Shown here piece after piece: positions 44-26,436 of a stretch of DNA of 26,436 bases. Each line of letters starts with the position of its first letter. The first letter of the stretch is position 1. Below the pieces are notes generated by a model, which saw only the letters and a program-made list of their open reading frames with translations, had not been told where the DNA came from and ran no database searches. The DNA is taken from positions 1 through 26,436 of IMG/VR virus record IMGVR_UViG_3300032293_000228; one strand, given 5' to 3'. The translations under genes were made by a program, and so were the position numbers. The DNA is from a virus.

Positions 44-1258
44 CTAGCGCCTTGCCCGTCGCTGCGCTCTGTTCAGTGGCTGCGCCGGCGCAGGCTGCTT
101 CTTGCGCGCGGTCATCCTCTCCACGAGTGGCAGCCAGGACTCGGAAAACACGAGGTCTGCGTCATAGCGCTCCATCGACTGAGCCACCGCAGCGCGGTCA
201 ACCCCTCCCCCCCGTGTCTCCTCATACACCTCTTGCATCGCGGCATAGCCAGCCTCGGTGTTGGCAATAGCGAAGTATGACCCCTGGTACTCATCCCAGA
301 CTCGCTGCGCTTTGACCTTGCGCCCGTGTGGGCCCAATAGTTCAGGCTGGGCGCTGAAGTCAGTCACGATGGCTGGAGTCCCGCAGGACTGCGCTTCCAC
401 TACGGGAATGCCAAACCCTTCGCCCATTGACAGCAGTAGGGTGGCGTCAGCGGCTGAATACATCTGGGCAATAGCCTCCTGCGGGATGCCGTTGCGGAAG
501 TGCTGAGGGTGCGGGTATCGGACGCGCTGCGGGTCAATGCCTGCCTGCGCCACTAGGCGCGGAATGTTTACGCCTTCGCTGTGCCCGTTAGGCTCGGTGT
601 GCAGCATCCAGTAGACATCCTTGCGGTCAGCCATCATCGGCGCCATCACATCCACCATCTCACCGAACCCTTTGCGGACTGGGATGCGTCCACGGTTGGC
701 GGCATTCGTCACGACCAGGAATGCCTCGTCAGGAATGCCCATCGCCTTGCGTGCATCCTTGCCAGTATCTCGGAACACGCTGCGGTCAATTGCGTGCGGA
801 ATGTATGTCAACTCATCTCTGGGCTGCCCAGCCTTCAGCAGCATCTCCTCGCCAAACTGACTCATCGCAATCGCAAAGTGCTGCCCATCCTTAAGGAACT
901 TAAGCACCTGCGGTGGCAGCGGGCTGTGGTCAACGGGAGTCCAGCACGCTAGGTTCATCTCCGTGAATGCCTGCACTCCAACGAGTGGCCAGAGGTCAAA
1001 AAGCACCACGCCAAACCCAGGCTTGTCCGCAATCCAGGAGCGCATCGTGTCCGGCGCAGAGTCGATGGAATAGCGCATCAATCCTTCAGGGAAGATTGGA
1101 TGCCCGTGCGCGCAGTTCATCATCACGCTAGCACCGTGGTTGGAGGCAATCGCTACCTCGTGCCCAGCGCTGACGAGCCGATGCACTACCTGTGCAGTCT
1201 GCATTCCATAGCCTGACGGGATGTGGCAAGCGTTGGAATACCACGCAATGCGACTCAT
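44..1258 (-). CDS. GT-B fold glycosyltransferase (group 1 / GT4-like)
   Basis: Predicted to transfer a sugar from a nucleotide donor to an unknown acceptor. At 404 aa it has the normal length for a two-domain GT-B enzyme. The C-terminal half carries the classic E-x7-E donor-binding motif in GEGFGIPVVEAQ (E280, E288), followed by SCGTPAIVTD; the N-terminal half has the glycine-rich SGYG turn near residue 15. I start it at the ATG at 1258, which follows a GAGGAGG ribosome site; the open frame runs further upstream but without one. The tail ends in NRAQRRARR, a basic tag of unknown role. It follows the HNH gene with an 11-nt gap and is the last gene before the window edge. In phages such enzymes modify DNA, capsid or host surface glycans. 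With a DNA-type glycosyltransferase at the other end of the window, a second sugar addition is possible but is inference. Confidence 0.9.
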   Translation of the reverse strand: MSRIAWYSNACHIPSGYGMQTAQVVHRLVSAGHEVAIASNHGASVMMNCAHGHPIFPEGLMRYSIDSAPDTMRSWIADKPGFGVVLFDLWPLVGVQAFTEMNLACWTPVDHSPLPPQVLKFLKDGQHFAIAMSQFGEEMLLKAGQPRDELTYIPHAIDRSVFRDTGKDARKAMGIPDEAFLVVTNAANRGRIPVRKGFGEMVDVMAPMMADRKDVYWMLHTEPNGHSEGVNIPRLVAQAGIDPQRVRYPHPQHFRNGIPQEAIAQMYSAADATLLLSMGEGFGIPVVEAQSCGTPAIVTDFSAQPELLGPHGRKVKAQRVWDEYQGSYFAIANTEAGYAAMQEVYEETRGGGVDRAAVAQSMERYDADLVFSESWLPLVERMTARKKQPAPAQPLNRAQRRARR

Positions 1259-1268
1259 CTGACCCTCC

Positions 1269-1583
1269 TCACTTGTGCTTCGTGCGTCTGCCGTGACACC
1301 TTCTGCATAGTACAGCCAGCCTGTGCTCGGGCGCAAGTAGCACTCCGCCTCGGCTGATAGGGTCAAGGTGGTCCACAGTCAGGTCAGCGGTCGTGCCGCA
1401 AATCTCGCACCAGCCACGCTTGCGCCGGAGTTGGGCGCTGAGTTTGCGCCACGCGGTGTCGGCATACGGGCTCACGCCCTTGCTGCGGGAATACTTCGCC
1501 AGCATCTCTGCGCGGTGGGCCTTACATCGATTGCCCATTGCGGTCAGGATGCCGCAGTCAATGCACGGGCGCTGGAAGGTCAC
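1269..1583 (-). CDS. HNH endonuclease
   Basis: A 104-aa HNH-family protein. The zinc-binding pairs are C59-x2-C62 and C93-x2-C96; the catalytic core is DH at 71-72, H87 in the middle position and H97 at the end (CRRCH). An extra Cys pair, C7/C10 with C20, may form a second small zinc site. It overlaps the metallopeptidase gene upstream by 4 nt (ATGA). In HK97-like phages HNH proteins often sit beside terminase and help cos cleavage; this one is far from terminase, so it may be a nicking or homing-type nuclease or a host-DNA nuclease instead. The family call is firm, the role is not. Confidence 0.88.
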   Translation of the reverse strand: MTFQRPCIDCGILTAMGNRCKAHRAEMLAKYSRSKGVSPYADTAWRKLSAQLRRKRGWCEICGTTADLTVDHLDPISRGGVLLAPEHRLAVLCRRCHGRRTKHK

Positions 1584-19591: not shown

Positions 19592-19610
19592 CTAACTCTT
19601 TATGAGTTAG
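19592..19610 (-). repeat. 7-bp hairpin covering the capsid stop codon
   Basis: A perfect inverted repeat, CTAACTC / GAGTTAG with a 5-nt loop. The TAA stop of the capsid gene is inside one arm. Together with the 12-bp hairpin it forms a tandem structure. Confidence 0.6.
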
Positions 19611-20764
19611 GCAACATTGGCGGACTTGAATGACTTGACTGCGCTTGCCTGGGCAAGACCAGTCGCGCCACGCACTTCAACCTTGTACGAAACAAGACCC
19701 GTGTTCCACGCAAACTCGCGTGAAACATCAACTCGCACGCCGCCAACAAGCGCCGTGTAAATCTGCCCGAGGTCACCGAACAGGATTGAACCTGCGGTGT
19801 CATCGGTGAGGTCAATCAGCGCTGCGGAATACACTGGCGCTCCGAGGAGTCGGTCAGGGTTATTCGCATCGCCTGCGCGGAAGATTGGCTGACCCGTTGT
19901 ATCAACGAGCCCGGTCACAACACCAAGCGTGGTGTCATTCATCAACCAACCAGCCTTTGGCGCTCGTCGGTACACCTGGTTCACAGATGCCTTCAACTTC
20001 GCAAGGTCAGTGTAGTTTGGGTTGACCGTGGTGCCCGAGCCCGTCACGCCAGCACCTGCGGCAGCGGCAATCGCCGTACCAGCAAACGCACCGTGCGCAA
20101 CTGCAACTTCTGCACCGCACTTGTCGGCAATCATCCCAGCCAGGTCAAAGACTGCATCCTCAACAAGTTCCTCAGAAACCTGAATGATGGTTGCATACTT
20201 CACTGGTGTAAGGGACAGCGCGCTGAGCGTGCCGTCCGACTCACCGATGGTGCCAGCCTCAGCAACGCTACCTGCGGTGCCGAGAGCAGTGACTCGTGGG
20301 AACTGGATGTTGTTGCCGTTGGCAACACGCACCACAGTGATAATCCCTGGGTCAAGGAATGGGTTGAACTGAGCCGCAACAACATTCACGCGGTCAGCAA
20401 TGGTGACTGGGTTGCCCAGGCCAGTTGACTTCGTGACATCACGGAACTCAAACATACGGCTGCCGCCGTTGCGCCCAAGTGCGCGCAGTTCGGCAACTTC
20501 GCTGTCGTCTGACTTCTCAACCTTTGGAGCGATGACGGCAGCAAACTCTGCGCGCGCTGCATCAGCAGCCGAGCGAGCCTCAGACGCATCCTTCTCCGAG
20601 CGAATGGCGGCAGCAATCGTGCTGGCCTCATTCGTGAGGGACTCAAAACGCGCCTGCGCCTCTCCCTCAAGTGCGGCACCCTTCTCTGCGAGGTCAGCAA
20701 CGATGCTGGTTGCCTCGGTGAGAAGTGACGCACGCTTTTCGTGCAACTTCTTTACATCAGCCAC
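19607..20764 (-). CDS. major capsid protein (HK97 fold)
   Basis: A 385-aa HK97-fold capsid protein. Residues 1-95 form a charged coiled-coil-like delta domain (KLHEKRASLLTEATSIVADL) that acts as scaffold and is normally removed by the prohead protease encoded next upstream. The rest shows typical HK97 pieces: GLGNPVTIADRVN, VANGNNIQFPRV, KYATIIQVSEELVEDA and the C-terminal VRVDVSREFAWNTGLVSYKV. It starts at GTG after AAGGAGG. It is followed by two hairpins. Confidence 0.92.
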   Translation of the reverse strand: MADVKKLHEKRASLLTEATSIVADLAEKGAALEGEAQARFESLTNEASTIAAAIRSEKDASEARSAADAARAEFAAVIAPKVEKSDDSEVAELRALGRNGGSRMFEFRDVTKSTGLGNPVTIADRVNVVAAQFNPFLDPGIITVVRVANGNNIQFPRVTALGTAGSVAEAGTIGESDGTLSALSLTPVKYATIIQVSEELVEDAVFDLAGMIADKCGAEVAVAHGAFAGTAIAAAAGAGVTGSGTTVNPNYTDLAKLKASVNQVYRRAPKAGWLMNDTTLGVVTGLVDTTGQPIFRAGDANNPDRLLGAPVYSAALIDLTDDTAGSILFGDLGQIYTALVGGVRVDVSREFAWNTGLVSYKVEVRGATGLAQASAVKSFKSANVA

Positions 20765-20866: not shown

Positions 20867-22363
20867 TCAGAGCGTTTCAGTGGTCAGTTGCTCAAGCACC
20901 AACTTCGCCTTAGCAATGCTGGGGTCAATCCCAACACGCTTTGGCGCGAGTGTTTCGCGCACCTGGTCCACTACCTGGAGTTCATCCTCAGACAACTCTT
21001 TGGCTGCCTTGATGGACTCCAGCGTTGACATAAGGCGCTCAGCGTCAACGCCAATCTTGTCGGCGGACAACTTGCGCACTGCGGTGAGCCCTAGCGTCGC
21101 AGGGTAGGCAGGAGTCTGCCCAGCGCTCAACACGCTCACCTCAAACAGATTCACTTCACGAATGGTGCGCTGGTCGCCAGCCCACTCATCGCCATTCTTT
21201 GGCACGGCAAACCCAAATGACATTCCCATTGCCGCAGCCTCGTGCGTCAACTTGCTGATGACGCTGGCAGCGTCCGGGTCAGCAGGGTCAAGTTTTGCCT
21301 CTACGCGGAGCCCGCGCTCATCCTCTTGTAAGGCAAGCCGCCCGCTGGCAGTTGTTGCCAGGGCGCGTGACTCGTCGTGCCCGAACAGGAATGAAATGAC
21401 CTTATTGCCCGCACCCGCTCGGCTGAGCGTGCGCTTAAATGCGCCAGGAGCGATGACCTCGGTGAATGGAAGTCCAGCCGAAGGCTGGTTGAACAGCGCC
21501 GCGTATCCCGTGAATGTCTTTTGTCCAGACTCATCTTCAGTCACGCTGAAGTCACCCATCGGCAGTGCGCGTGTTTCCAACTCTTTCACATCAAACCTCT
21601 CTGCTGTGGCATTGATAATGCCGTCTGCCCATCGTACAACGCGGTCAGCGCTCTCCCCATCAGTTGGGTCCACGCCCCACAGGTATGCGGCCACTGCGCC
21701 CGGTCCAGGGAAGTCAGCATCGTCAGCGTTGCTATTGCGTGGCACATCTTCCCAATCGATGCGGTGGCGGAGAATCCAGGCGCGCATTCGCATCACCTTC
21801 TCATCCTCAACCTTGCCTGCGCGGAGTTGTCGTGCCTCCTCCACCGTTTGAGGTTGAAGGCCATCGCCGCTCAACCCAGCCTCGTGGTACTGCAAGCCAC
21901 GAGCAGCCGCATCCTGAATGTATTGCGGAACATCCACGAGCACGCGCATTTCATCATCGCTCTCATCGTCAGCAGTTAGTTCCATCGCCTCGTCTGGCGT
22001 GTAGGCAGCGATGCCCATACCCTCGGCTGTAGCCCTAGCGTCAGCATCGTTGTCAACCAGGAACTCCAACTCATCGCCATACTCCTCTTGCAACTTGCTG
22101 TACTTGTACCCCTTGAATGCTTCTGCAACAGCAGGGCTGCTCTGCTCGTTGAAGTCCTGCAAGTGAATCTCTGAAAATGGCACGCTGTTGTCGCGCAGCC
22201 ACTTCTCTGTTTCGTCAAGCCTGCGGATTGGTCGTGCGCTTACAACGATGACCTCATCACCGCTGTCCTGCACATATGACTTCAGCCAATCGATGTATGG
22301 CTGGTTGGGGGTATCGCCGGTGGTCGTGAGCGTGCCGTCAATGTCGGTGATGATGTATGACAT
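20867..22363 (-). CDS. HAD phosphatase domain fused to prohead protease
   Basis: A 498-aa protein, about twice the usual length of a prohead protease. Residues 1-130 are a HAD-type phosphatase: TDIDGTLT (D7, D9), VVSARP (S42), a lysine near 87-90 and FLVDNDADA (D104, D106). Residues about 140-255 are a phage head-protein module with a helix (MRMRAWILRHRIDW) and PGAVAAYLWGVD. Residues 262-430 are the S78-type protease, with H329 in GHD and S382 in MSFGF. The protease trims capsid delta domains and sits between portal and capsid genes. The role of the HAD part is unknown. The ATG overlaps the portal stop (TAATG) after AGGAG, so both domains are one gene. Confidence 0.88.
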   Translation of the reverse strand: MSYIITDIDGTLTTTGDTPNQPYIDWLKSYVQDSGDEVIVVSARPIRRLDETEKWLRDNSVPFSEIHLQDFNEQSSPAVAEAFKGYKYSKLQEEYGDELEFLVDNDADARATAEGMGIAAYTPDEAMELTADDESDDEMRVLVDVPQYIQDAAARGLQYHEAGLSGDGLQPQTVEEARQLRAGKVEDEKVMRMRAWILRHRIDWEDVPRNSNADDADFPGPGAVAAYLWGVDPTDGESADRVVRWADGIINATAERFDVKELETRALPMGDFSVTEDESGQKTFTGYAALFNQPSAGLPFTEVIAPGAFKRTLSRAGAGNKVISFLFGHDESRALATTASGRLALQEDERGLRVEAKLDPADPDAASVISKLTHEAAAMGMSFGFAVPKNGDEWAGDQRTIREVNLFEVSVLSAGQTPAYPATLGLTAVRKLSADKIGVDAERLMSTLESIKAAKELSEDELQVVDQVRETLAPKRVGIDPSIAKAKLVLEQLTTETL

Positions 22364-23556
22364 TATTCTTGTGGCTCCTGTCCGATTGTGCCGATGTTTA
22401 GTGGCTTCCAGTATGCATCGCCGTCTGGTCCAATCCCTGTCCTGTCCTCCAGGGCTCGCACCTCGTTGATGCTCAAGAAACCATTGTTGAGTGCGGTCGC
22501 ATAAGAGTTGTAGCGCTCCTGCGTGGTGGCGCGGAGGAGCCCGTCAACCGTGAACTTCAGGAAGGTGCGCTCAGCGCCTGGAACCAGTCGCTGGAATGCA
22601 GCCTCAAGTCGTGCTACGAGTGGGCCCAATCCCAGGCGCAGCCATTCGATGCCGATGACTTCCACGCTGCTATATGAGGTGTTGCCGCCTGGGTACTGCA
22701 GCAGATGCAACGGCACGCCATAGATGCGCGCGATTGCCTCAACGCCATAGTGCATTGTCTCCACGAGTTGAAGGTCATTAATCTTGACGCTCATTTGCGA
22801 ATAGTCAGCGCCTCCGGTCAGTACTGCTACGCGCCAGGCGCGGTCAACACCTTCGTGCCTTCGGGCAAAACTATCTCGGAGTGTCTGCGCTTGTTCCTGC
22901 GTCAACTCCCCTGGAACCTTAACCACGCCGCCCACGGTTGCGCCCTGCTCATAAAACTTGGCGCCAAAGAGTTGCGTTGCAGCGGCAAGTCCGAGGGTGA
23001 CGCGGTGATGCTCAACGGGATTCAGCCCACGCTCATTCTCTCCAGTTGCGAACAACGGAATGTGAACAATAGAATCCGCACCGAGGGTTGATGCGCCCTC
23101 CTTTGTTGTCACCTTGTATACGGGCTCACCCATCGGGCCAGACAGTATCTCCACCTTTTGCGGGTCAAGCACTCGTGTCTCAACAACATTGTCAGAGGAG
23201 TCGCGCAGCGCAAGGATGAATGCGTTGCCGTCAATCAGCAGGCTGCTGACCACTCGATGCTTGAAGTCAAACGCTGTGCGGTTGGGGTTGTTAGGCTCCG
23301 GGACATCCATCCAGCGCGGGCGCGGGCGATAAGGTCTGCGCTCACCGTCAACCCTGATGTATGTGTCCCACGGGAGTGAGGCAACTGTGTCGGCGTAAAG
23401 TTTGACGGCTGCATACAGCGCGCCAATGCTTGTTGCATTATCCTCGTTGATGTGTACGCCTGCTGTTTTTTGCGGCAGGTCGGATGGCCACCACGGTGAC
23501 ACCACTCGCTGCTCCTCGGTTTGTTCACGCCCCAGGATGCGGTCAAAGATTCCCAT
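22363..23556 (-). CDS. portal protein (HK97 family)
   Basis: A 397-aa portal subunit that forms the dodecameric ring for DNA entry. Family marks are TSIGALYAAVKLYADTVASL near the start, LLIDGNAFILALRD in the middle, LQLVETMHYGVEAIARIYGV with PLHLLQYP, and a late FLSINEVRALEDRTGI. The length is typical. It follows the large terminase gene and precedes the protease gene, the standard HK97 order. Confidence 0.93.
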   Translation of the reverse strand: MGIFDRILGREQTEEQRVVSPWWPSDLPQKTAGVHINEDNATSIGALYAAVKLYADTVASLPWDTYIRVDGERRPYRPRPRWMDVPEPNNPNRTAFDFKHRVVSSLLIDGNAFILALRDSSDNVVETRVLDPQKVEILSGPMGEPVYKVTTKEGASTLGADSIVHIPLFATGENERGLNPVEHHRVTLGLAAATQLFGAKFYEQGATVGGVVKVPGELTQEQAQTLRDSFARRHEGVDRAWRVAVLTGGADYSQMSVKINDLQLVETMHYGVEAIARIYGVPLHLLQYPGGNTSYSSVEVIGIEWLRLGLGPLVARLEAAFQRLVPGAERTFLKFTVDGLLRATTQERYNSYATALNNGFLSINEVRALEDRTGIGPDGDAYWKPLNIGTIGQEPQE

Positions 23557-25500: not shown

Positions 25501-26394
25501 TCATTCTCCTTGCTTTTGTTCGTCATCCTCATAGCGCATCCCGTACTCGTTGGGCTCTGCTTCCAAAGCAAGTCCGGGTTTGCGTCGCAACTTATTGCGC
25601 TTGAATGGAGTGTAATCCACATAGTGATGCCATCTCCCAAAGCGCCAGACAATCTTTGACACATCTGGGTGCAAGTCCACCTGCATCTTGGACTTAGGAA
25701 GCGTGCCTTCTTTGGCGTAGAACTCTGCCGTGTTCCCACCCTTGACTGTCTGCGTGCGGAGTTTCATTTGCAGGAATGCGTTGAACTGCACCGTGCACCA
25801 ACCATCCTTGAGCATTCGCAGGCTCAGGTCGGTGTCCTCGTTGTACCTTCCGCGCCAGCGATACGGCACATCATTCCTGATGAGGTTGCACGAGTAGATG
25901 CGAGTGTTCAGGGCAAAGGGTGGCTGCTTGCTCTTACGGCTGGCAAACATAAAGTAGTTGGGCCCACTCATCGCCACATTGTCGTAGCGGTCAACGAAGT
26001 CCTCCATCGCAGCAAAGATGGCGCCAGTCTTGGCTGGCACTTTGAAGTTGCGGTTGAGCCTGAAGAATCCGTCAATGTTGTCGTCCATCACCCAGTGGCT
26101 TGTGGCTCCTGCCTTGATGGAATGCTCCCACGCAAAGTTGCGCGCAGGTCCTGGCCCTTTGCTCTTGGTCATCCCCAAGTCGTCGCAGGGGTCATAGTCA
26201 ATCTGGTACTGCTTGTCGAGCACCAGCAAGGTGGCTGACGAGTCTATGTGCCGAGCGTACTCATCGTGCTCTTGCTCCTCAACAACGATGTAGTGCGGCA
26301 CGCCCATCTCGTGCAACGAGCGACTCGTCAGGCGAGAGTCTGCCCTGCCTTTGCTGACGATGTATAGCGGGTGCTTAGGATTTGTCATCGACAT
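25501..26394 (-). CDS. TET-associated-type glycosyltransferase (DNA hypermodification)
   Basis: A protein of about 297 aa matching the TAGT/GREB1-C-terminal-like glycosyltransferases. Its marks are PKHPLYIVSKGRADSRLTSR near the start, GPGPARNFAWEHSIKAG, the metal-binding-like HWVMDDNIDGF, and RGRYNEDTDLSLRMLKDG with LRTQTVKGGNTAEFY. Family members are linked to glycosylation of oxidised 5-methylcytosine or related bases in phage DNA. The partner dioxygenase or methylase is not in this window. The start is uncertain: ATGs at 26394 and 26388 and a TTG at 26418 are possible, all without a strong ribosome site; the two ATGs give short overlaps with the upstream gene. Confidence 0.85.
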   Translation of the reverse strand: MSMTNPKHPLYIVSKGRADSRLTSRSLHEMGVPHYIVVEEQEHDEYARHIDSSATLLVLDKQYQIDYDPCDDLGMTKSKGPGPARNFAWEHSIKAGATSHWVMDDNIDGFFRLNRNFKVPAKTGAIFAAMEDFVDRYDNVAMSGPNYFMFASRKSKQPPFALNTRIYSCNLIRNDVPYRWRGRYNEDTDLSLRMLKDGWCTVQFNAFLQMKLRTQTVKGGNTAEFYAKEGTLPKSKMQVDLHPDVSKIVWRFGRWHHYVDYTPFKRNKLRRKPGLALEAEPNEYGMRYEDDEQKQGE

Positions 26395-26436
26395 AACGCT
26401 TGGTGACCAGTCTGCCAATCTCTGCTTCTGGGAACC
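26375..26436 (-). CDS. C-terminal fragment of an upstream gene
   Basis: A frame open to the window edge that ends with TAA at 26375 (last residues FPEAEIGRLVTKRYVDDKS). It overlaps the glycosyltransferase start by about 14-20 nt, like other gene joints here. It is too short to identify. In related phages DNA methylase or ParB-like genes can occupy this place, but nothing here proves it. Confidence 0.4.
   Translation of the reverse strand, partial: FPEAEIGRLVTKRYVDDKS

Follow-up and report, generated by a model that had tools for sequence, protein, structure and literature searches.

We found that a gene of an uncultured virus joins a HAD domain of PNKP-like fold, a middle module and a prohead protease in a single reading frame, that the HAD domain is one of several exchangeable N-terminal cassettes rather than a constant component of the protein, and that an internal start under selection precedes the protease. 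The gene very probably makes both the HAD-middle-protease fusion and a conventional 240-aa protease. The window, meaning the whole 26,436 nt stretch analyzed here, is a metagenomic virus contig (IMG/VR record IMGVR_UViG_3300032293_000228).

A HAD domain in frame with an S78 prohead protease

The gene lies between the portal and HK97-type capsid genes, downstream of TerS/TerL (Table 1). A preliminary description made from the DNA had noted one continuous frame with HAD, middle and protease parts, without giving its strand. This was borne out for the minus strand, which encodes 498 aa in one open frame, while the plus strand of the same segment carries many stops. The ATG at 22363 has an AGGAG upstream and overlaps the portal stop codon (TAATG). 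Near the window ends, at 25501-26418 (-) and 44-1366 (-), we also noted two glycosyltransferase genes, one TET-associated (TAGT, E 1e-47) and one of group 1; they suggest that the phage DNA is hypermodified and glycosylated.

Table 1. Features of the fusion gene and its neighbors, in window coordinates
Feature	Coordinates	Strand	Remarks
Long product, HAD - middle module - S78 prohead protease	20867..22363	-	498 aa, single open frame; in frame in ~100 distinct relatives
HAD domain (module C), residues 1-128	21980..22363	-	D7, D9, S42, R44, K84/K87, D104
Acidic low-confidence linker, residues 129-143	21935..21979	-	pLDDT <50 at 132-140; downstream edge of swapped cassette
Middle module D, helical, residues 145-251	21611..21931	-	also N-terminal to protease-capsid fusion in Roseobacter phage CRP-406
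Internal Shine-Dalgarno GAGAGG (codons E255-R256)	21596..21601	-	6 nt before internal start
Internal start codon GTG, codon 259	21587..21589	-	first of 498 columns
Predicted short product, conventional 240-aa prohead protease	20867..21589	-	inferred from conserved internal start
S78 protease domain, residues 273-423, H329 and S382	21095..21547	-	Pfam PF04586
Portal gene	22363..23556	-	stop overlaps long-product start
HK97-type major capsid gene	19607..20764	-	directly downstream of protease gene

The C-terminal part is, by sequence, a member of the S78 prohead protease family. PF04586 matched residues 273-423 with an E-value of 3e-30 and 105.9 bits (gathering score 21), and the proposed catalytic pair H329 and S382, already named in the preliminary description, was invariant in the 29 aligned full-length members. 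The protease part of a full-length AF2 model was poor, so inter-domain contacts could not be read from it. In Roseobacter phage CRP-406 (L142:3492-5876), the middle module is found at the N-terminal end of one 794-aa chain with the annotation major capsid protein, which is apparently a fusion of middle module, protease and capsid.

The N-terminal part has a PNKP-like HAD fold that falls below the cut-off of that family. With a single full-length sequence the HAD match was sub-threshold in Pfam (Hydrolase_3, HAD_PNKP), and the HAD part matched phrog_415, 'polynucleotide kinase', with an E-value of 3e-10. HAD_PNKP was matched by 23/23 aligned members, with E-values up to 0.01, and its gathering score of 27.6 was not reached (21.6 bits for the HAD of the window, 26.7 for L115). 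Searching the PDB by sequence with the single protein returned nothing, and with the alignment it gave only weak matches that included thioredoxins. Structure prediction, which the preliminary description had proposed as a check for a HAD fold in residues 1-130, was clearer: the AF2 model of residues 1-135 (pLDDT 91.8, pTM 0.86) is a Rossmann-like HAD fold without a cap insert, and Foldseek led to HAD phosphatases. Among the significant PDB matches, T4 PNKP (2ia5) had the top TM-score (0.76, rmsd 2.4); those of Pnkp1 were 0.67-0.70, of Nir2 LNS2 0.65-0.72 and of lipin/Pah 0.64-0.68, with the E-values of lipin/Pah slightly better than those of PNKP.

All of the HAD motifs are present (DxD motif I, S/T motif II, K motif III and acidic motif IV). 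Using hhalign, D165/D167, S211, R213 and D277 of T4 PNKP aligned with D7/D9, S42, R44 and D104; no clear arginine was found at the positions aligned with R176/R246 of T4 PNKP, where the alignment is weak. D9, S42, R44, K84 and D104 were identical in 100/100 distinct HAD domains and D7 in 99, despite pairwise identities down to ~45%, and the assignment of D7, D9, S42 and D104 in the preliminary description was thus correct. D106 was kept in 95/100, and the classical second Asp position of motif IV is N105 (N in 85, D in 13). A dead structural fold is disfavored by this conservation, and the HAD domain is likely to be catalytically active. Its substrate may well be polynucleotide ends, most likely a 3´-phosphate of DNA or RNA, an assignment we make tentatively. 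Capless HAD enzymes have an open active site that suits large substrates, and nucleic acid 3´ ends are favored because of this open site and because, among phage proteins, polynucleotide kinases/phosphatases are the closest relatives; one of these, in a Drulisvirus, adjoins RNase H and endonuclease VII genes.

Four scans of IMG/VR, in which we looked for the same fusion in related phages as had been suggested, yielded ~100 distinct sequences with HAD in frame with the protease. Counted with first-pass module profiles, 88 full-length HAD-middle-protease frames remained from the first three scans after removal of duplicates, and 78 of these 88 had a portal gene upstream and a capsid gene downstream. 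Median dN/dS was 0.25 for HAD, 0.16 for the middle module and 0.12 for the protease. A metagenomic contig might be suspected of joining unrelated pieces, and the fusion could then be an assembly artefact or a chance frame. This has a negligible probability and is ruled out by the ~100 independent in-frame relatives and by purifying selection, each architecture being found in several independent metagenomes. Judging from these sequences, the fusion is old and maintained. Two relatives have a broken HAD-protease frame, between middle module and protease in L120 and inside HAD in L109, either through assembly error or as a true split.

No HAD and protease fusion was found among 50,697 isolated phage records. 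A scan of cellular genomes with the family alignment gave no relative, and one that used a distant member turned up four MAG contigs, whose similarity covers the middle module and protease and not HAD. In BFVD, A0A6J5R419 of an uncultured Caudovirales phage (501 aa, the same length class) matched with 64% identity over HAD and is evidently the same fusion; it was deposited under the automatic name 'Prohead protease', and we found no description of it. Several further uncultured-phage prohead proteases in BFVD matched the HAD model at 19-28% identity.

A conserved internal start and exchange of the N-terminal cassette

Codon 259 of the frame lies in a low-confidence linker just upstream of the protease domain, in the context GAGAGG-TTTGAT-GTG. 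In 95/95 alignable members this codon is GTG (73), ATG (12) or TTG (10), with no other Val or Leu codon. Two tests on codon 259, both of which allow only partly for relatedness among members, gave the same picture: among 55 clustered representatives its column ranked 1 of 498 for start codons and Shine-Dalgarno energy, with a mean anti-Shine-Dalgarno duplex energy of -7.4 kcal/mol compared to a column mean of -2.6, and synonymous shuffles gave -4.26 (sd 0.36; best of 300, -5.2) compared to -7.59 observed. The internal Shine-Dalgarno sequence is at least as strong as that of the gene's own start (-6.4). The Arg codon within it was AGG in 23/23, compared to 5.7% AGG usage among Arg codons overall. 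Synonymous identity also peaked at this site, though the peak was local and not outstanding (z 2.4), and the codon-choice test is the stronger of the two. We conclude that the internal start is under selection.

The same start is present in members that lack HAD. In the divergent L121, L141, L176 and L203, another Shine-Dalgarno sequence (AAGGAG, GAGGAG or GAAGGAG) precedes an ATG, and in three distant HAD-middle-protease members (L190, L201 and L205) no obvious internal start was found before the protease. Other candidate sites were rejected: M139, at the start of the middle module, has a poor Shine-Dalgarno sequence and is not conserved, and positions 191/193 are preceded by Shine-Dalgarno-like sequence, but the M is not conserved. 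According to the preliminary description, evidence that the protease can be made by itself from a start inside the frame would count against the fusion. Computationally, codon 259 is predicted to be such a start, and because a conserved start codon and Shine-Dalgarno sequence precede the protease, a protease of normal size is probably also made, with the fusion as a second, longer product. The short product would presumably begin where ordinary S78 proteases usually start.

The sequence upstream of this start varies by whole modules. In relatives without HAD, Pontimonas phage phiPsal1 among them, the place ahead of the shared middle module and protease is taken by two others, module A (MPYFITD...GWATVK...GCHETKEAAI...) and module B, which has four Cys (4-Cys). 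Mixed N-termini were also seen: A-HAD, HAD-B, HAD without the middle module, and HAD with a DUF5824-like segment. The last of these is exemplified by L125 and L129, in which more than 100 extra aa (DUF5824) lie between HAD and the middle module. Among 76 untruncated loci selected by the protease, HAD was present in 48 and absent from 28, and all 76 had an in-frame N-terminal extension.

An exchange is seen between L010 (HAD) and L071 (A-B), whose protease domains are 100% identical in aa and 99% in nt. Their DNA homology ends ~20 nt into the frame at common 'ITD' codons and restarts right after HAD, with a breakpoint that maps to linker residues 129-143. Each of the two forms was recovered from at least three metagenomes. 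The HAD cassette (M-S/P-Y-I-I-T-D; L010 ~1097-1116) and module A (M-P-Y-F-I-T-D; L071 ~2482-2501) have common first codons, as if microhomology there had guided the exchange of cassettes. HAD domains can also replace one another: L052 and L172, both HAD-bearing, have proteases that are 99% identical and HADs that are 46% identical. On the protease tree we counted 10 changes of HAD state, at least seven of them forced by well-supported branches. HAD is no constant component of the protease, given that other modules replace it before an identical protease domain.

Two other loci bear on the modules themselves. L094:3938-5842 encodes a HAD-protease with a ~110-aa insert C-terminal of the protease (WTVSADRDLDIVERDWDG...), another exchangeable-looking module. 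In Actinomycetia phage DSL-LC01 (L143:2515-7309), a Cys-rich gene with the annotation 'high potential iron-sulfur protein' directly precedes two others annotated as capsid maturation protease and is possibly a standalone relative of module B.

A model for the two predicted products and its alternatives

We propose that translation from 22363 would give the long HAD-middle-protease form, while initiation at 21589 would give the ordinary 240-aa protease. If this short form carries out head maturation, the N-terminal part would therefore be free for swapping. The HAD domain would be an active, capless, metal-dependent phosphatase of the T4 PNKP type that enters the prohead as cargo on the long form, is cut loose at the acidic linker during protease maturation, and then works either within the head or, after ejection along with the DNA, in the next host cell. 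Entry into the prohead is a requirement for prohead proteases, as established for HK97, and loading is for that reason the simplest use of a covalent link. HK97-type proteases also digest themselves and leave the head, and a tethered domain might therefore be destroyed too. We regard entry into the prohead and release of HAD as evenly poised between right and wrong. The explanation as a whole, a two-product gene with an exchangeable cassette and a PNKP-like phosphatase as optional prohead cargo, is plausible and is put forward with some reserve.

The Drulisvirus relative of the HAD domain is a standalone protein. Its place in a nucleic-acid metabolism cluster, together with an internal start through which the protease does not depend on its N-terminus, would fit a soluble phosphatase of nucleotides or nucleic acid ends that works in the infected cell and is not packaged, the protease gene serving as a convenient slot for late expression. 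We consider this unlikely, since a module is in frame in 76/76 untruncated protease-selected loci though a separate gene would do, and since neither of the other cassettes, A or B, is known as a soluble enzyme. That unrelated modules (A+B, HAD, A+HAD, HAD+B, extra DUF5824) fill the same position could instead point to a structural role, in which they act as spacers, resemble a scaffold or serve as targeting elements by which a share of the protease reaches the prohead, with HAD catalysis incidental; the nearly constant middle module could itself be the targeting part. However, a spacer has no need of D7, D9, S42, R44, K84 and D104, which disfavors a mere spacer, and the catalytic residues are kept in 99-100/100 while domain identity drops to ~45%, making a purely structural role improbable.

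Fast exchange of cassettes on an unchanged protease is also the pattern expected of conflict genes, and polyvalent proteins (PMC5512222) offer a precedent for packaged effectors. HAD could then be a packaged anti-defense or host-takeover effector exchanged in an arms race, acting on a host or defense nucleotide or nucleic acid end rather than on phage DNA. With dN/dS well below 1, we find this quite improbable, and we keep to packaging of a PNKP-like phosphatase as the working model.

Relation to known systems and implications

The gene resembles several described systems and differs from each. It shares with S78 proteases of the HK97 gp4 type (PF04586/phrog_80) the C-terminal half, the standard slot between portal and capsid genes and the H329 and S382 residues, and differs in a 250-residue N-terminal extension with HAD and a conserved internal start. 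The prohead protease of phiPsal1 (MG835450, AUV61415.1) agrees in middle module and protease, with 37% identity over residues 96-472, and has the same portal and capsid neighbors, but its N-terminus consists of modules A and B (4-Cys), without HAD. The phosphatase domain of T4 PNKP (pseT; 2ia5) and phrog_415 share the fold and the D/D, S, R, K and D motif residues; the domain studied here lacks a kinase domain, has mostly DN instead of DD, and is fused to a head protease.

Polyvalent proteins, which are presumed to be packaged, end in assemblin-like peptidases (PMC5512222). Like the gene described here, they string multiple modules together ahead of a C-terminal head protease and are encoded among virion genes. 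However, they are large separate effectors, whereas the fusion involves the phage's own prohead protease, for which packaging is predicted; the word 'phosphatase' is absent from the text of PMC5512222. Two polypeptides from in-frame internal starts have been validated for phage endolysins (PMC9430671). There too a long and a short product have a common stop, while in the present gene both are predicted from sequence, the enzyme class is another one and the short form is the head protease. Consistent with the preliminary description, which knew of no described function for such a fusion, we found in open-licence PMC papers no description of the fusion, its function, the exchange slot or the internal start.

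A curious fusion thus becomes a testable system with sharp predictions, namely that each gene gives two protease products and that exchange of the N-terminal enzyme leaves the protease unaffected. For annotation it is a warning that such 'prohead proteases' hide enzyme cassettes and that the short product is missed by gene callers. More speculatively, an entire group of uncultured phages may use its prohead proteases as a loading dock, where enzyme cassettes are exchanged, travel into the head on the long form and are delivered together with the DNA. The conserved internal start would uncouple the protease from its N-terminus, and the slot would hold the HAD phosphatase, the 4-Cys module or others. 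If the long form does enter the head, fusion to the maturation protease would be a simple means for phages to load enzymes into capsids, and it would also suggest a cargo-loading tool.
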